DNA from: Zestomonas carbonaria
GTDB taxonomy: Bacteria; Pseudomonadota; Gammaproteobacteria; Pseudomonadales; Pseudomonadaceae
Assembly (NCBI RefSeq): GCF_904061905.1
Contig: NZ_CAJFCI010000045.1
Coordinates: 1-64,000 of the forward strand
Length of the DNA stretch: 64,000 nucleotides
Reading direction: 5' to 3'
Position numbers and translations under genes: made by a program. This document shows positions 561-51,870 of the stretch, in pieces. The number at the start of each line of letters is the position of its first letter. The first letter of the stretch is position 1. The notes under the pieces were generated by a model. The model made no database searches. It was not told the DNA's origin and saw nothing but the letters and a program-made list of their open reading frames with translations.

Positions 561-1208
561 TCAATCCCACCCCTCCGGACAAGCCCTGCAACCCTCCATA
601 TTGGCATCCTGGAAGTTGCCGAAGCGGGTGCGGGCGCCGGTCAGGTCGGCGTTCTCCAGGTTGGCGCCGCCGAGCTTGACCTCTTGCAGGTTGGCGTCGT
701 GGAGGTCGGCGCCTTTCAGGTCGGCCTTGCTCAGCCAGGTCATTTCCAGGTCGGCGGCGGCCAGCTTGACGTCGTGCAGCTTGGCGCCGGAAAGGCGGGC
801 GAATTCCAGGTAGGCGGCGGAGAGGTCCGCGCCACGGAATTGCGCGGCCTGGGCGAACAGGCCCCAGCCCTGGATGGCGACCAGCCTGGCATCGCTGAAG
901 TCGGCCATGCGCAGGTTGCTCTGCTGCAGGCTGGCGCGGGTGAGGTTGGTGTCGACCAGCCGGGCGTTCTCCAGGTTGGCGAGGTCCAGGTTGCTGTGGC
1001 GCAGGTCGGCGCCGGACAGGTCGGCGCCGGCGAGATTCATCTTGCGCATGTCCTGGTTGCGCAGATCGGCTCCGCGCAGATCGGCGGCGGGGCACTGGCT
1101 TTCCGGTTCGATACGGCAGCCGTTGACGACCAGCACGTCGTCCTCGGCGAAGGCGAAGCTGCCGGCGACCAGCAGGGCCAGCGGCAGGAACAGGGGCAGG
1201 TATTTCAT
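561..1208 (-). CDS. Periplasmic pentapeptide-repeat protein
   Basis: The protein has 215 residues. A signal peptide (MKYLPLFLPLALLVAGSFAFA) is followed by a short linker and then almost continuous pentapeptide repeats of the A(D/N)LxX type from about residue 45 to the end. Such repeats fold as a right-handed quadrilateral beta-helix. The start at 1208 is chosen because GAGGAG lies just upstream and the signal peptide begins there; a longer frame to 1280 only adds repeat-like sequence. The gene lies 94 bases downstream of the alcohol dehydrogenase gene on the same strand. I recall a pentapeptide gene beside the ped quinoprotein dehydrogenase of P. putida, so a role in that periplasmic system is likely. 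No catalytic motif is present and the molecular function is unknown. Confidence 0.85.
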   Translation of the reverse strand: MKYLPLFLPLALLVAGSFAFAEDDVLVVNGCRIEPESQCPAADLRGADLRNQDMRKMNLAGADLSGADLRHSNLDLANLENARLVDTNLTRASLQQSNLRMADFSDARLVAIQGWGLFAQAAQFRGADLSAAYLEFARLSGAKLHDVKLAAADLEMTWLSKADLKGADLHDANLQEVKLGGANLENADLTGARTRFGNFQDANMEGCRACPEGWD

Positions 1209-1302: not shown

Positions 1303-3174
1303 TCAGCGGCTGGCGGTCTTGCCGTCCCAGCTCGGCAGCTTGAACACCCAGAACGAGCCGCCCTGGGCGACCGGCTTGGTCAGTTCGGCCATGTCGCCGC
1401 CCCACAGCGGTACCGCGCCGCCGTAGCCGACGGTCACGCCGATGTACTGCTCGCCGTCCTGTTCCCAGGTGATCGGCGGGGAGACGATGCCGCTGCCGGT
1501 CTGGAAGCTCCACAGCTCCTTGCCGTTCTTGGCGTCGAAGGCCTTGAAGAAGCCGTCGCCGGTGCCGGTGAACACCAGGTTGCCCTTGGTGGCCAGCACG
1601 CCGGCCCACAGCGGCAGGCGTTCCTTGTGTTCCCAGACGACCTTGCCGGTGGTCGGGTTCATGGCGCGCAGGATGCCGACGTGATCGTCGTACAGGCGCT
1701 TGATGCGGAAGCCCATGCCCAGGTAGGCGGAGCCTTTCTTGTAGTGCGCCTCCTCGGCCCAGTAGTCCTCCTTCCAGTGGTTGGCGGGCACGTAGAACAG
1801 GCCGGTGTCCTGGCTGTAGGCCATCGGGTTCCAGTTCTTGCCGCCGAGGAACGGCGGGGAGACTTCCACCACCTTGCCGCGCGCCTGGCCCGGTTCCGGC
1901 TTGGGCGGACGCTGGCCTTCGTTCTCCACCGGGCGGCCGGTCTTCAGGTCGATGTGGCTGGCCCAGGTGATCTTGTCGACGAACGGGAAGGCGTTCTGCA
2001 GCTTGCCGTTGCTGCGGTCGACCACGTAGAAGAAGCCGTTGCGGTCGGCGTGGGCGGTGGCCTTGACGGTCTTGCCGTCCTTGTCCTTGTAGTCGAACAG
2101 CACCAGCTCGTTGTTGCCGGAGAAGTCCCAGGCATCGTTCGGGGTGTGCTGGTAGAACCATTTCACCTCGCCGGTGGTGGGATCGACGCCGACCTGGCCG
2201 GAGGTGTACAGGCTGTCGTAGTCCTTCGGATCGCCGCCGTCGGCGGTGCGCGCCCAGCCGTTCCAGGGCGCCGGGTTGCCCGCGCCGACGATGATGGTGT
2301 TGGTCTCGGCATCGAAGCTGGCGCTCTGCCACGGCGCGCCGCCGCCCTGGCTCCAGGCTTCCTTCTTGCCGGTCAGCGAGTTGGGGTCGTCCGGCCAGGA
2401 CGGCGCCTTGATGTCGCCGGTGGGCGTGCTGTCCTTGCCGTTCAGGCGGCCCATGTGGCCTTCCACGAACGGGCGCATCCAGATTTCCTCGCCGGTGTCC
2501 GGATCACGGGCGAACAGCTTGCCGACCACGCCGAACTCGTCGCCGGAGCTGCCGTGGATCAGCAGCACCTTGCCGCTCTTGCCGTCCTTCACGATGGTCG
2601 GCGCGCCGGTCATGGTGTAGCCGGCGGAGTGGTCGGCGAACTTCTTGTTCCAGACCACCTTGCCGGTGTCCTTGTTGAGCGCCACGACGCGGGCGTCGAG
2701 GGTGCCGAAGTAGATCTTGTCGCCGTAGATGGCGGCGCCACGGTTGACCACGTCGCAGCACGGGCGGATGTCGTCGGGCAGGCGGTGGCTGTAGGTCCAC
2801 AGGCGCTTGCCGGTCTTGGCGTCGAGGGCGAACACGCGGGAATAGGAACCGGTGACGTAGATCACCCCGTCATGGACGATGGCCTGGGATTCCTGGCCGC
2901 GCTGCTTCTCGTCGCCGAAGGAGAACGACCAGGCCGGGGTCAGCTTGAACACGTTGTCGGTGTTGACCTGGGCCAGGGGGCTCCAGCGCTGGGCGTTGGT
3001 GCCCAGGCCGTACTGCAGAACGTTGTTGGTGGTCAGGTGGTCGTTGGCGATGTCGTCCCAGGTGACTGGCTTGGCCAGCGCTGTGCCGCCGAGCGCCAGG
3101 CCACCGGCCAGCAGCAGGCTGTGAATGGCGAGAGCCATGGGGCGTGGCGTGCTGGGTAACGATCTTGTTGTCAT
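1303..3174 (-). CDS. exaA: PQQ-dependent quinoprotein ethanol dehydrogenase (ExaA/PedE type)
   Basis: The periplasmic enzyme oxidises primary alcohols to aldehydes using pyrroloquinoline quinone and passes electrons to a soluble cytochrome c. The protein has 623 residues, the length I recall for P. aeruginosa ExaA, and matches it closely from memory. A signal peptide ends at TALA (residues 31-34). The adjacent cysteine pair C139-C140 (RPCCDVV) is the vicinal disulphide over PQQ. Tryptophan-docking propeller repeats follow, for example ALDAKTGKRLW. The metal-site segment reads AWDFSGNNE, with serine two residues after the aspartate. Lanthanide-dependent enzymes have aspartate there, so this should be a calcium enzyme. 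The start at 3174 gives MTTRSLPSTP; an ATG five codons upstream (3189) is possible and neither has a strong ribosome site. The gene is divergent from cytochrome c550. Confidence 0.95.
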   Translation of the reverse strand: MTTRSLPSTPRPMALAIHSLLLAGGLALGGTALAKPVTWDDIANDHLTTNNVLQYGLGTNAQRWSPLAQVNTDNVFKLTPAWSFSFGDEKQRGQESQAIVHDGVIYVTGSYSRVFALDAKTGKRLWTYSHRLPDDIRPCCDVVNRGAAIYGDKIYFGTLDARVVALNKDTGKVVWNKKFADHSAGYTMTGAPTIVKDGKSGKVLLIHGSSGDEFGVVGKLFARDPDTGEEIWMRPFVEGHMGRLNGKDSTPTGDIKAPSWPDDPNSLTGKKEAWSQGGGAPWQSASFDAETNTIIVGAGNPAPWNGWARTADGGDPKDYDSLYTSGQVGVDPTTGEVKWFYQHTPNDAWDFSGNNELVLFDYKDKDGKTVKATAHADRNGFFYVVDRSNGKLQNAFPFVDKITWASHIDLKTGRPVENEGQRPPKPEPGQARGKVVEVSPPFLGGKNWNPMAYSQDTGLFYVPANHWKEDYWAEEAHYKKGSAYLGMGFRIKRLYDDHVGILRAMNPTTGKVVWEHKERLPLWAGVLATKGNLVFTGTGDGFFKAFDAKNGKELWSFQTGSGIVSPPITWEQDGEQYIGVTVGYGGAVPLWGGDMAELTKPVAQGGSFWVFKLPSWDGKTASR

Positions 3175-3480: not shown

Positions 3481-3900
3481 ATGAACAAGAAAAACACCAC
3501 GGCTGTCGCACTGTTGCTGCTGGCCGCCGCGAGCAACGCCTGGGCGCACGGAGATGTGGTCCCGCAGGCGGTAAACACGGACGGTCTGGAGCCGTTGGGC
3601 ACCGAATGGCGCGAGGAGAACCCCTACCGCGACAACCCCAAGGCGATCGAGATCGGCTCCTCGGCCTACAACCAGAACTGCGCGGCTTGCCATGGCCTGG
3701 AAGCCAAGTCCGGCGGCATCGCCCCCGATCTGCGCTACCTGGAGATCGGCGCCACCGGTGACGAGTGGTTCAAGGAACGGGTGATCAACGGCGCGGTGCG
3801 CGATGGCCGGGTGTACATGCCGAAGATGGCCGACTTCCTCAGCCAGGAGGCGCTGTGGGCGGTGCGCAGCTACCTGGAGAGCGTGCACGTCGAGGAGTGA
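3481..3900 (+). CDS. exaB: Cytochrome c550, electron acceptor of the quinoprotein dehydrogenase
   Basis: This periplasmic monohaem cytochrome c has 139 residues. The signal peptide ends at AWA (residues 20-22). The haem motif is CAACH at residues 67-71, and M114 in VYMPKM is a plausible axial ligand. It matches the ExaB/PedF cytochrome family that takes electrons from the PQQ ethanol dehydrogenase and feeds the respiratory chain. It is divergent from the exaA-like gene across a 306-base promoter region, the usual arrangement. The name pedF is used for the same protein in P. putida. Confidence 0.92.
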   Translation: MNKKNTTAVALLLLAAASNAWAHGDVVPQAVNTDGLEPLGTEWREENPYRDNPKAIEIGSSAYNQNCAACHGLEAKSGGIAPDLRYLEIGATGDEWFKERVINGAVRDGRVYMPKMADFLSQEALWAVRSYLESVHVEE

Positions 3901-3914
3901 GGCCCGCCGCTCTC

Positions 3915-4012
3915 GTAGGGTGCGCCGTGCGCACCGGCCCGGGAACGACACAATCTCACCCGGCGATACACCGTGGGCTTCTTCGGTAAACGGTGCGCAC
4001 GGCGCACCCTAC
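3915..4012. repeat. 98-bp terminal-inverted-repeat element upstream of the SoxYZ-like gene
   Basis: The element is bounded by 21-base perfect inverted repeats at 3915-3935 and 3992-4012. The left arm reads GTAGGGTGCGCC then GTGCGCACC. A relative is at 4861-4965, and the two share CGTGGGCTT just inside the right arm. The right end directly abuts GAGGAG, the ribosome binding site of the next gene. Confidence 0.8.
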
Positions 4013-4028
4013 GAGGAGTGTATCTTCC

Positions 4029-4775
4029 ATGCGCCACGCACTGCTCTGCCTGCTCTTCATCCCCTGCCTGGCCCTGGGCGCCATGGCCGAGGACCCGCTG
4101 AAATCCTCCATGTGGGACTACCACCGCCAGCGCCTGCTCGGCTCCGAGCCGGTGGTGTTCGACGAGCGGGTCAGGCTGGAGGTGCCGCCGTTCGCCGAGG
4201 ACGCCCGCCAGGTGCCGATCCAGGTCGACGCCCGCGCCCTGGACGGCGAGGTGGTGCGCATGGTCGCCTGGGCGGAGCTCAACCCGATCCCGCACATCTT
4301 CACCTTCCATCCGCGCTCGCCACGGGTGCAGGCGCTGCTGGCGATCCGCATCCGCGTCGAGCAGGCCACCCCGCTGCGCGCCGCGGTGCTGACCCGCGAC
4401 GGCGTCTGGCACGTCGGTTCGGCGCGGGTCGAGGCGGCCGGCGGCGGTTGTACCGCGCCCAGCGTGGTGCGCAGCCAGCCCGGCTGGGAACGGCGTCTCG
4501 GCCAGGTACATGGCGCGCGCTTCCCGCACGGCGAGGTCAGCCGCCTGCGCCTGCGGGTCGATCATCCGATGGACAACGGCCTGGTTGGCGGCATTCCCGA
4601 ATTCTTCCTCAACCAGGCCGAGCTGCGCGATGCCGACGGCCAGCCGCTGGCCAGCCTGGAGCTGTTCCCGGCGGTCGGCGAGAACCCGACCATCGGCCTG
4701 CGGGTCGAGGGCCACGACGAGGCGCAACTGTGGCTGCGCGACAACAACGGCAACGAGTTCGAGGCGAGCTTCTGA
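4029..4775 (+). CDS. Quinoprotein dehydrogenase-associated SoxYZ-like carrier
   Basis: The 248-residue protein has a signal peptide ending near AMA (residues 18-20). The N-terminal half is SoxY-like and ends in a glycine-rich segment with one cysteine, AAGGGCTAP (C141). The C-terminal half is SoxZ-like. In Sox systems the corresponding cysteine carries the covalently bound sulfur intermediate, so C141 is the likely carrier site, but the cargo in quinoprotein clusters is not established. Fused SoxYZ-like proteins of this type regularly accompany PQQ alcohol dehydrogenases. The start at 4029 is supported by GAGGAG at 4013-4018 and by the signal peptide. The stop overlaps the start of a 25-codon frame by one base. 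Confidence 0.85.
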   Translation: MRHALLCLLFIPCLALGAMAEDPLKSSMWDYHRQRLLGSEPVVFDERVRLEVPPFAEDARQVPIQVDARALDGEVVRMVAWAELNPIPHIFTFHPRSPRVQALLAIRIRVEQATPLRAAVLTRDGVWHVGSARVEAAGGGCTAPSVVRSQPGWERRLGQVHGARFPHGEVSRLRLRVDHPMDNGLVGGIPEFFLNQAELRDADGQPLASLELFPAVGENPTIGLRVEGHDEAQLWLRDNNGNEFEASF

Positions 4776-4852
4776 TGAACGGCCTCCCGCTGCTGGTTCC
4801 GATCTGCTGCCTGCTGGTGCTGCTCAGCCTGCCGTTCCTGCTGCAACCATGA
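4775..4852 (+). CDS. Candidate 25-residue hydrophobic membrane peptide
   Basis: The reading frame starts in a TGATG overlap with the stop of the SoxYZ-like gene, so translational coupling is plausible. The product (MNGLPLLVPICCLLVLLSLP then FLLQP) is almost entirely one hydrophobic segment with a CC pair at residues 11-12. That fits a single-span inner-membrane peptide. It fills the gap before the next repeat element. I recall a very small hypothetical gene at this place in the P. putida ped cluster, but cannot confirm homology. It could also be a chance frame. Confidence 0.5.
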   Translation: MNGLPLLVPICCLLVLLSLPFLLQP

Positions 4853-4860
4853 ACGTTTCC

Positions 4861-4965
4861 GTGGGGTGCGCCGCGCGCACCGTTCACCCGGCGACCACAC
4901 GGAATCGCAGGTCGTGCACGGCGTTCCGGCGTGGGCTTTTTTCCGGTGCGCATGGCGCACCCTAC
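4861..4965. repeat. 105-bp terminal-inverted-repeat element upstream of the metallohydrolase
   Basis: The arms at 4861-4881 and 4945-4965 are inverted repeats of 21 bases with three mismatches. They are close to the arms of the element at 3915-4012. The interior again carries CGTGGGCTT before the right arm. The right end directly abuts the GGAGG of the next gene. Confidence 0.78.
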
Positions 4966-4974
4966 GGAGGATTC

Positions 4975-5907
4975 ATGCTGAGATTCGTGATGCTCGGGCT
5001 GGCCCTGCTGGTTGCCGTCGACACCCAGGCCGACCTGGCGTACAAGCTGCAACCCCGCCAGGTCGCCCAGGACACCTGGCTGCTGGAAGGCGCCACCGAC
5101 AACTTCTCCGCGCGGAACGGCGGTGACATCGTCAACGTCGCCTTCATCGCGACCTCCGCCGGCGTGGTGGTGATCGACAGCGGTCCTTCGCGGCGCTACG
5201 GCGAGGCGCTGCGCCAGGCCATCGAGGCCACCACCGGGCAGCCGGTGGTCCTGCTGCTGCTCACCCACCACCACCCGGATCACGTGCTCGGCAACCAGGC
5301 CTTCGCCGACGTGCCCATCGCCGCGCTGACGGGCACCCGGGAGCTGCTGGCCGAGCAGGGCGACGCCATGGCCGAGAACATGTACCGGATGGTCGGCGAC
5401 TGGATGCGTGGCACCGAGGTACGGTTGCCGGACGAGACCGTGGAAGAGGGCGAGCGCCAGGTCGGCAACCATCGCCTGCGGCTGCTTGCCCTGCGCGGCC
5501 ATACCGGCGCGGACCTGGCGATCCTCGACGAAACCACCGGCGTGCTGTTCGCCGGCGACCTGCTGTTCCACCAGCGTGCCCTGACCACTCCGCACAGCCC
5601 CGGCCTGGACGTCTGGCTGGCCGACCTGGAGCGCTTGCAGGCACTGCCCTGGAAGCTGGTCGTTCCCGGCCACGGCCCGGTCGCCAGCGACCCGGCGCCG
5701 TTCGAGCAGATGCGCGACTACCTGGGCTGGCTCGACGGCCTGCTGCGCGACAGCGCGGCGCAGGGCGCGGACATGACCGAAGTGATCCGCGCGCCGATCC
5801 CCGAGCGCTTCGCCGGGGTCGAGCTGAGCCGCTACGAACTGATCCGCACGGTCAGCCACCTCTACCCGCGCTACGAGCAGGAGCGGCTGTCGCGGGTGGA
5901 CCGGTAG
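4975..5907 (+). CDS. Quinoprotein relay zinc metallohydrolase (MBL fold)
   Basis: The 310-residue metallo-beta-lactamase-fold protein has a short signal peptide (MLRFVMLGLALLVAVDTQAD). The zinc motif is HHHPDH (H98, H100, D102, H103). Further metal ligands are expected at H in LRGHTGAD, D in FAGDLL and H in VPGHGPV, all visible. Proteins of this type occur beside PQQ alcohol dehydrogenases with a SoxYZ-like carrier; hydrolysis of a carrier-bound or PQQ-related thioester-like species has been suggested, but the substrate is unknown. The start is fixed by GGAGG at 4966-4970. It is the last gene of the plus-strand half of the cluster and converges on yejK with only four bases between. Confidence 0.85.
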   Translation: MLRFVMLGLALLVAVDTQADLAYKLQPRQVAQDTWLLEGATDNFSARNGGDIVNVAFIATSAGVVVIDSGPSRRYGEALRQAIEATTGQPVVLLLLTHHHPDHVLGNQAFADVPIAALTGTRELLAEQGDAMAENMYRMVGDWMRGTEVRLPDETVEEGERQVGNHRLRLLALRGHTGADLAILDETTGVLFAGDLLFHQRALTTPHSPGLDVWLADLERLQALPWKLVVPGHGPVASDPAPFEQMRDYLGWLDGLLRDSAAQGADMTEVIRAPIPERFAGVELSRYELIRTVSHLYPRYEQERLSRVDR

Positions 5908-50727: not shown

Positions 50728-51870
50728 GTGAAGCGCTGGAAATATGCCGCACTGCTGGCCTGCGCCGTTCTGGCGGCGGGTTGCAGCAGCACTAGCAAGA
50801 AGGAACTGCCGCCGGCCGAGTTGCCCGATTTCACCGCGGAAGTCGAGTTGAAGACCGAGTGGAGCCGCTCCATCGGCGACGGCCAGGGCGATACCTGGAA
50901 CATGCTGGTCCCCGCAGTGGACGGCGACAGCATCTTCGCCTCCGACGTCAACGGCGAGGTCAAGGCGATGAACCGCCTGACCGGCGAGGTGCTCTGGTCC
51001 CAGGATCTCGACCTGCCGGTCTCCGGTGCGGTCGGCGCCGGCTACGGCCTGGTCCTGCTCGGCACCCTGCGTGGCGAAGTGATCGCCCTGGATGCCTCCA
51101 ACGGCGAGGAAAAGTGGCGCGCCCGGGTGACCAGCGAAGTGCTGGCGCCGCCAGTGACCAACGGCGACGTGGTGGTGGTACAGACCCAGGATGACCGCCT
51201 GATCGCCCTGGAAGCCTCCACCGGCAGCCAGCGCTGGGTGTTCGACAACACCCCGGCGGTGCTGACCCTGCGTGGCACCGGCGCGCCGCAACTGACCAGC
51301 CGCCTGGCCATCGCCGGGCTGTCCACCGGCAAGGTGATCGCTCTCGACACCCAGCGTGGCCTGCCGGTCTGGGAACAGCGCGTGGCAGTGCCGCAAGGCC
51401 GTTCCGAACTGGACCGCATCGTCGATATCGACGGTGGTCTGCTGCTTTCCGGCAACACCATCTATGTCGCCACCTACCAGGGTCGCGTCGCCGGCCTGGA
51501 CCTCGACAGCGGTCGTATCCTCTGGCAGCGCGAGGCGTCCAGCTACGTCGGCGTGGCCGAAGGGTTCGGCAACGTCTATGTGAGCGCGGCCAGCGGCGCC
51601 ATCGAGAGCATCGACGAGCGTTCGGCCTCCGTGCTGTGGAGCAACGATGCCCTGGCCCGCCGCCAGCTTTCGGCGCCGGAAGTGTTCTCCAGCTACGTGG
51701 CGTTCGGTGACCTGGAAGGCTACCTGCACCTGGTCAGCCAGGTGGATGGCCGTTTCGTCGGTCGCACGCGTATCGACAGCGATGGCCTGCGCGCGCGTCC
51801 GCTGGTGGTCGGCGACTGGCTGTATGCCTATGGCAATGGCGGGAAACTGGTCGCGCTGACCATCCGCTAA
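50728..51870 (+). CDS. bamB: Outer-membrane assembly lipoprotein BamB
   Basis: The 380-residue lipoprotein of the BAM complex has lipobox LAAGC (C19) and an eight-bladed PQQ-like beta-propeller (blades such as AMNRLTGEVLWSQD and ALDASNGEEKWRAR). Unlike the exaA-like protein it binds no cofactor. The GTG start at 50728 gives MKRWKYAALLACAVLAAGC and the 380-residue length I recall for P. aeruginosa BamB; an ATG three codons upstream is possible. A strong terminator follows. Confidence 0.96.
   Translation: MKRWKYAALLACAVLAAGCSSTSKKELPPAELPDFTAEVELKTEWSRSIGDGQGDTWNMLVPAVDGDSIFASDVNGEVKAMNRLTGEVLWSQDLDLPVSGAVGAGYGLVLLGTLRGEVIALDASNGEEKWRARVTSEVLAPPVTNGDVVVVQTQDDRLIALEASTGSQRWVFDNTPAVLTLRGTGAPQLTSRLAIAGLSTGKVIALDTQRGLPVWEQRVAVPQGRSELDRIVDIDGGLLLSGNTIYVATYQGRVAGLDLDSGRILWQREASSYVGVAEGFGNVYVSAASGAIESIDERSASVLWSNDALARRQLSAPEVFSSYVAFGDLEGYLHLVSQVDGRFVGRTRIDSDGLRARPLVVGDWLYAYGNGGKLVALTIR

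Follow-up and report, generated by a model that had tools for sequence, protein, structure and literature searches.

A SoxYZ-like carrier, a metallohydrolase and a rhodanese that accompany PQQ alcohol dehydrogenases: a candidate periplasmic sulfur relay

Introduction

What work is done by a sulfur-carrier-like protein and a metallohydrolase that are encoded next to an alcohol dehydrogenase? The question is raised by the beginning of Zestomonas carbonaria contig NZ_CAJFCI010000045.1. The window analyzed here is the first 64 kb of this 138,562-base contig, from a Pseudomonadaceae draft genome in 143 contigs with a completeness of 100. Close to its start, genes for cytochrome c550 PedF/ExaB (3481..3900), a SoxYZ-like fusion carrier of 248 residues (4029..4775) and a metallo-beta-lactamase (MBL) fold hydrolase of 309 residues (4978..5907) lie on the plus strand, divergent from minus-strand genes for a pyrroloquinoline quinone (PQQ) ethanol dehydrogenase (1303..3174) and a pentapeptide-repeat protein (561..1208). 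A first-pass annotation of the window named these five members, and all are present, the last two lying outside the interval 3481-5907 to which it assigned the cluster and on the opposite strand. Its list is correct for the members it gives and overlooked a third partner of the carrier and hydrolase, a TIGR03865 rhodanese encoded on another contig of the same genome (C46:4800-5270, 216.9 bits against a cut-off of 128.05; the contig has 6,660 bases).

The annotation also held that these families are named after their association with quinoprotein dehydrogenases and have no settled function. The literature supports this: TIGR04557 (carrier), TIGR04558 (hydrolase) and TIGR03865 already carry quinoprotein or PQQ names with function unsettled in print, and P. 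putida PP_2677 and PP_2678 were reviewed in 2026 in passages that state their function as unresolved (PMC12997753). Besides the named families, protection of the dehydrogenase from sulfur has been proposed in passages of two papers (PMC11237559, PMC12997753). What the genome comparison appears to add is the rhodanese as a third, often unlinked and sulfurtransferase-like member, and independence of the set from lanthanide enzymes.

Joint inheritance of carrier, hydrolase and rhodanese

The main point of interest is whether the three genes belong together. We use 198 Pseudomonadaceae genomes at least 90% complete, searched with E thresholds of 1e-3, 1e-60, 1e-25 and 1e-140, every counted match being also above its curated cut-off. 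The carrier, the type 1 MBL hydrolase (MBL1) and the rhodanese are each found in 85 of the 198, and the three lists of genomes are identical. All 85 fall within the 123 genomes that have a PQQ dehydrogenase. Fisher's test of carrier against hydrolase gives 3e-58 with genomes treated as unrelated. Because the genera g1, g9 and g15 each mix genomes with and without the three-gene set, joint gain or loss has occurred more than once. The co-occurrence across genomes that the first-pass annotation had suggested as a check is borne out by these lists. To judge from gene content, the three genes in this family are present or absent together, and solely with a PQQ alcohol dehydrogenase, of the calcium (Ca) or the lanthanide (Ln) type.

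The rhodanese is often unlinked. In 63 of the 85 genomes it lies at most 25 kb from the carrier; in 8 the two share a contig at a greater distance, and in 14 they are on different contigs. Four single-contig genomes give the scale of the far cases, with separations of 102 kb (G170), 247 kb (G113), 1.59 Mb (G057) and 3.27 Mb (G116), the last being a distance along the contig that would be about 0.77 Mb if it is circular.

A wider sample of 299 genomes across the phylum has 39 with the carrier, 16 with MBL1, 35 with the rhodanese and 83 with the dehydrogenase. These are nested, all rhodanese and MBL1 genomes being within the carrier genomes, and all carrier genomes within the dehydrogenase genomes. 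Among the 83, both carrier and rhodanese occur in 35, carrier alone in 4, rhodanese alone in none and neither in 44 (p = 2.7e-19, relatedness ignored). The carrier count takes the matches in one open frame from 50 genomes above the TIGR04557 cut-off, dropping 11 that run through stop codons and were taken for separate soxY and soxZ genes; in a further 48 genomes the match stays below the cut-off. MBL1 was counted above its cut-off alone, and the other 23 carrier genomes match its model at 143.9 to 203.6 bits. Since carrier-free genomes reach 156 bits, such a match is no proof of a type 2 enzyme (MBL2); one type 2 hydrolase checked directly scores 396.9 bits with TIGR04559.

The set is also found on plasmids. 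By tblastn, the carrier is in 32 plasmid records. MBL1 is adjacent in all 8 surroundings that were opened; 7 of them also have an annotated rhodanese and 7 a PQQ dehydrogenase, the exception for both being a short D. shibae stretch. These distributions suggest that carrier, hydrolase and rhodanese make up one unit that tends to be inherited together.

Two types of carrier can be told apart, GGGC and K-A-[SA]-GGC. The GGGC type adjoins MBL1 in 158/158 cases; the second type adjoins MBL2 in 23 and has no MBL gene within 1.5 kb in 6. Carrier and hydrolase subtypes agree in 181 of 181 neighboring pairs, and genomes with both carrier types keep them apart (L284 and L286 in G409, L289 and L288 in G393). 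One reading of this matching is direct recognition between carrier and hydrolase. G393, G409 and G329 have three carrier copies each, with both hydrolase subtypes in the same genome. Second, divergent SoxYZ-like frames below the family cut-off are seen at G006:C3:64270-64887 (95 bits), G037:C49:39907-40524 (93 bits) and G007:C12:732-1346 (46 bits), in genomes that also hold a standard carrier.

Sulfur-type features of the three proteins

The carrier scores 205.9 bits with TIGR04557 (cut-off 140) over the entire model, positions 1-226 of 226, and also matches the Pfam SoxY and SoxZ domains. Its arm cysteine C141 is codon 4449-4451 in VEAAGGGCTAPS, and the other cysteines, C7 and C13, are near the N-terminus. 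An alignment of 20 carriers, drawn from loci of the Gamma- and Alphaproteobacteria type, has 15 invariant residues, C141 being one. The GGC motif recurs without exception in the 114 distinct carriers listed, which match two reference carriers at 60 bits or more. A profile alignment places C141 on the terminal arm (carrier) cysteine of SoxY 4uwq_B. This is the single carrier cysteine named in the first-pass annotation. The AlphaFold model has a mean predicted local distance difference test (pLDDT) score of 79.9, falling below 50 at residues 140-146. This stretch lies between two beta-rich parts, and its low score is what a flexible arm should give. Foldseek gives SoxY chains as the best matches to this model, including the SoxB-SoxYZ complex 4uwq. 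The protein is not a true SoxY, with 50 bits against TIGR04488 (cut-off 125) and an arm of GGGCTAP in place of GGCGG.

The hydrolase scores 430.8 bits with TIGR04558, the quinoprotein relay zinc metallohydrolase type 1 (cut-off 300). Its ligands H97, H99, D101, H102, H175, D194 and H232 are invariant in 30 hydrolase sequences, in agreement with the full zinc site of the earlier annotation, so that the binuclear site is complete by sequence and metal binding is predicted. The model (pLDDT 86.5) has its nearest solved fold in 8d2z (Z = 29.8). Chlorothalonil dehalogenase (Z = 28.9) comes next and B1/B2 lactamases after it; the Foldseek list also has alkylsulfatases. VIA-align and Foldseek searches with this model give no specific functional relative, and such matches fix the fold, not the substrate. 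The match to the hydroxyacylglutathione hydrolase GloB is weak, at 39 bits where the cut-off is 200.8.

The rhodanese, of the family named PQQ-dependent catabolism-associated CXXCW protein, has a CxxxCW loop with both cysteines and the tryptophan invariant in 19/19 aligned sequences. Its relatives by sequence in the Protein Data Bank have E values from 5e-5 to 1e-4; among them are YgaP and 1qxn, a chain labeled 'sulfide dehydrogenase' which we take to be a polysulfide sulfurtransferase; it also matches the rhodanese/DsbD-like selenoprotein TsoB weakly. In some more distant loci (L280, L286, L290 and L291) the rhodanese, carrier and hydrolase genes are side by side with no dehydrogenase recognized nearby, and the rhodanese likewise adjoins the carrier in L284 and L285. 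Three genomes of genus g108 (G224, G329, G409) have, whole or in part, a same-strand run of MBL2, carrier, rhodanese, thioredoxin and CcdA. The thioredoxin, with motif APWCPICK, is 3' of the rhodanese in all three, and a CcdA-type membrane protein follows it in L285 and L291; L294 has one more weak thioredoxin match about 8 kb from the hydrolase. Sox loci have thioredoxin and CcdA-type counterparts in SoxW and SoxV, and by that analogy the order fits an arm that would need to stay reduced. The survey of neighbors used a simple gene picker that overlooks some real genes, such as the MBL genes of L043 and L044, and listed hydrophobic or thioredoxin-like neighbors through a crude filter.

Two small protein families without an NCBIfam match (L283:14186-14794 and L282:9341-9682) recur near second-type carriers, in 5 and 4 of 28 loci, and may also belong to the broader quinoprotein cluster.

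A proposed thiol/sulfur relay

The account we favor, tentatively and at somewhat less than an even chance, is that carrier, hydrolase and rhodanese act as one periplasmic thiol/sulfur relay serving PQQ dehydrogenases. Sulfur or thiol handling is preferred to aldehyde handling because a SoxY-type arm, a dithiol rhodanese and a hydrolase occur with thiol-reducing neighbors; service to the PQQ dehydrogenase is proposed because the set is strictly dependent on that enzyme. In this scheme, reactive sulfur (persulfide, thiosulfate, sulfite or thiols) would be caught by the rhodanese loop and Cys141, in a capture that could be oxidative with electrons passing to a c-type cytochrome. The metallohydrolase would then cut the adduct from the arm, taking the part that SoxB has in the Sox pathway, and thiol reduction would reset the arm. 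The dehydrogenase would gain in that its PQQ or its active-site disulfide stays clear of sulfur adducts.

Related ideas are in the literature, as proposals, not tests. Passages of PMC12997753 restate the idea of a PQQ adduct and note that thiosulfate hampers growth of Hyphomicrobium on methanol; passages of PMC11237559 propose that a SoxYZ fusion shields methanol dehydrogenase from thiosulfate, and say that SoxH replaces SoxB on SoxY in Sulfurimonas CVO.

Several observations weigh against this relay. Among the 123 Pseudomonadaceae dehydrogenase genomes, 38 do without carrier, hydrolase and rhodanese; the rhodanese is absent from 4 of the 39 carrier genomes of the phylum sample (G216, G384, G393, G459). 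Genomes are related, so the p values overstate the association, and the subtype matching may come from simple co-inheritance of neighboring genes. The thioredoxin and CcdA neighbors are confined to one genus and to the MBL2 branch, which is not that of the window. In the passages concerned, random barcode transposon sequencing (RB-TnSeq) of P. putida gave minimal phenotypes, with short-chain alcohols and rare-earth-deficient conditions (PMC12997753), and a direct role of SoxYZ fusions in sulfur metabolism is judged unlikely (PMC11237559). Searches of the open-access PMC literature gave no substrate, adduct or activity, and that RB-TnSeq statement as the sole experimental lead on function. What joint inheritance provides is a sharper hypothesis and experiment, not proof of the reaction.

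Metal type and the vicinal disulfide

An alternative already in print is that the set helps the dehydrogenase itself, by making or repairing its vicinal disulfide or aiding cofactor stability, mainly in Ln-dependent enzymes, and passages of PMC12997753 point in this connection to the M. extorquens operon, which includes a thioredoxin-like gene. Confinement of the set to genomes with PQQ dehydrogenases fits such maturation or redox quality control, and a two-cysteine rhodanese, with thioredoxin and CcdA in one genus, suits disulfide work. The dehydrogenases can be asked directly whether metal or disulfide goes with the set.

The window enzyme (TIGR03075) has WDFSG at the catalytic Asp and a vicinal CC pair. 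We presume it to be Ca-type, taking an Asp two residues past the catalytic Asp as the mark of the Ln type. It is the sole full-length TIGR03075 match in the assembly, all 9 candidates having been scored, besides two short weak matches, and the same search of the 143-contig draft found no Ln-type dehydrogenase (WD[FY]DG). The weak matches (42.6 and 25.6 bits) are PQQ beta-propeller matches in one 391-residue frame at window 50941-51540, probably a BamB-type protein.

Where a set-carrying genome has a single detected dehydrogenase, the enzyme is Ca-type in 10 cases, that of the window among them, and Ln-type in 15. Nine set-lacking genomes with a single dehydrogenase that were fetched are similarly mixed, 5 Ca-type (G064, G118, G126, G127, G136) and 4 Ln-type (G008, G051, G173, G178). 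With 10 of 25 set genomes Ca-type, a lanthanide link is rejected as the general explanation. For comparison, PedG is in the fetched locus of 15/15 Ln-only genomes against 0/9 of the other Ca-only genomes. The CC pair is in 168 of 168 dehydrogenases, from genomes with the set and 30 without, and so is rejected as a discriminator. No residue among the eight best alignment columns per type completely separates the dehydrogenases of set-carrying and set-lacking genomes; columns that separate them in part seem to reflect lineage. This comparison covers 30 of the 38 set-lacking genomes, and the dehydrogenase searches in both samples scored part of the first-look candidates, so that extra dehydrogenases were possibly missed.

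Since both metal types and a universal CC pair occur with the set, neither metal nor CC pair predicts the relay. At the level of these gene and motif counts, that speaks against the lanthanide-condition or disulfide role suggested in PMC12997753. The set is not Ln-specific in the way PedG is, the disulfide is there with or without it, and the metallohydrolase would be left without a clear role. We regard the maturation explanation as unlikely, at something over one chance in five.

Other explanations

A second alternative develops the aldehyde option of the first-pass annotation into an aldehyde or acyl carrier. The product aldehyde would form a hemithioacetal on Cys141, to be oxidized to a thioester that the MBL enzyme hydrolyzes, much as in glutathione-dependent formaldehyde oxidation but in the periplasm. 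The tie of the set to alcohol dehydrogenases suits this, as do the binuclear site and the weak GloB match of the hydrolase. It gives no role to the rhodanese that accompanies the pair in 85/85 genomes, or to thioredoxin and CcdA, and the fold neighbors of the hydrolase are general ones. We think it quite unlikely. The annotation had proposed an aldehyde- or sulfur-derived adduct on the carrier cysteine; sulfur is the half that fits better, from the constant rhodanese and the thioredoxin and CcdA of one genus, and nothing in these results points to an aldehyde. Its further idea of protection from the alcohol oxidation product finds no pointer here either. It had named absence of an alcohol or aldehyde phenotype in deletions among the evidence that would count against it, and the minimal RB-TnSeq phenotypes in the passages of PMC12997753 go part of the way there.

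Another possibility turns the roles around, with the PQQ dehydrogenase itself oxidizing thiosulfate, tetrathionate or thiol adducts carried by SoxYZ. There is a precedent in passages of papers citing Pyne et al. 2018 on the Advenella kashmirensis thiol dehydrotransferase, described as an XoxF-type enzyme that acts with glutathione on thiosulfate or tetrathionate and feeds Sox proteins (PMC6548844, PMC9774590, PMC10301885). Nothing here indicates sulfur oxidation by enzymes of the ExaA/PedE type, and in several loci (e.g., L280, L284, L285, L286, L290, L291) no dehydrogenase is recognized out to some 20 kb from the relay genes. We consider this explanation improbable. Also a long shot is a bolder form of the relay, self-contained and distinct from Sox, in which quinoprotein and cytochrome would oxidatively load the arm with sulfur or thiols. 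If that were true, alcohol oxidation and sulfur oxidation or detoxification would be one coupled machine, for Ca and Ln enzymes alike, made of rhodanese, fused SoxYZ arm and cognate MBL hydrolase, with a thioredoxin-CcdA reset in some bacteria.

Least probable is a co-regulated passenger, working in another periplasmic sulfur or thiol process and sharing the growth conditions of alcohol oxidation alone, for which the set often not being beside the dehydrogenase and the minimal alcohol phenotypes in passages of PMC12997753 would speak, against its never occurring without a PQQ dehydrogenase (85/85 and 39/39 genomes).

The interest of the thiol/sulfur relay is that in many bacteria the use of alcohol and methanol begins with a PQQ dehydrogenase, and that the set accompanies a large share of the genomes that have them (85/123 in Pseudomonadaceae, 39/83 in the phylum sample). 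With the rhodanese included and lanthanide dependence dropped, a list of neighbors becomes a testable module, and viewing it as a unit would explain the weak results of single-gene screens on alcohols.

Other features of the window

The cluster proteins of the window exceed curated NCBIfam cut-offs, cytochrome c550 by TIGR04494 at 218 bits, with the exception of the pentapeptide-repeat protein, which has no specific NCBIfam model in profile scans and is called PedD-like after the naming in passages of PMC12997753. Signal peptides were judged by eye. Directly 3' of the carrier gene, a hydrophobic 25-residue open reading frame (4774..4851, + strand) has no family match in profile scans. A similar frame follows the carrier in 1 of 80 named relatives (L197), and it was dropped as a member, being probably outside the relay system.

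A palindrome with 21-nt exact arms, GTAGGGTGCGCC..., lies between pedF and the carrier gene (3915..4012, hairpin z = -7.23), and a second copy between the carrier and hydrolase genes (4861..4965, z = -5.92). The two are the sole matches in the window and form very stable predicted hairpins. They resemble a dispersed repeat, and their sequences do not show that they belong to the relay. Near the contig end, a 36-nt exact repeat (148-183/484-519) and a 64-nt repeat at 94% (293-356/567-630) are partial duplications of the pentapeptide gene's 3' end and the DNA downstream of it.

Comparison with known systems

One established pathway for comparison is Sox thiosulfate oxidation. The carrier resembles it in having SoxY and SoxZ domains with the arm cysteine aligned, and the thioredoxin and CcdA of one genus resemble SoxW and SoxV. 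It differs in that the arm is an internal GGC(S/T/A) within a fused protein, and in having an MBL enzyme in the place of SoxB, which has a different fold.

The Advenella kashmirensis thiol dehydrotransferase is an XoxF-type quinoprotein working with Sox proteins, and a fused carrier, an MBL enzyme and a rhodanese go unmentioned in the passages of PMC9774590, PMC6548844 and PMC10301885. The ped cluster of P. putida KT2440 (PP_2666, PP_2677, PP_2678) according to passages of PMC12997753 has, like the genome of the window, a rhodanese, a SoxYZ fusion and a SoxH-like hydrolase with pedD-pedE-pedF. Unlike KT2440, the window genome shows one dehydrogenase; in the window pedF and the carrier have no pedG between them, and the hydrolase is not followed by pedH. 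In Hyphomicrobium denitrificans, a Sox(YZ) fusion and SoxH are near PQQ alcohol-catabolism genes, as in the window, and YeeE-like PmpAB transporters are reported there (passages of PMC11582611). The SoxYZ-S2/S4 fusions, which we would guess correspond to the two carrier types, occur with soxH and PQQ-ADH or xoxF in passages of PMC11237559, and so share with the window a fused carrier and SoxH-like hydrolase beside quinoprotein genes; the rhodanese is drawn in the same islands.

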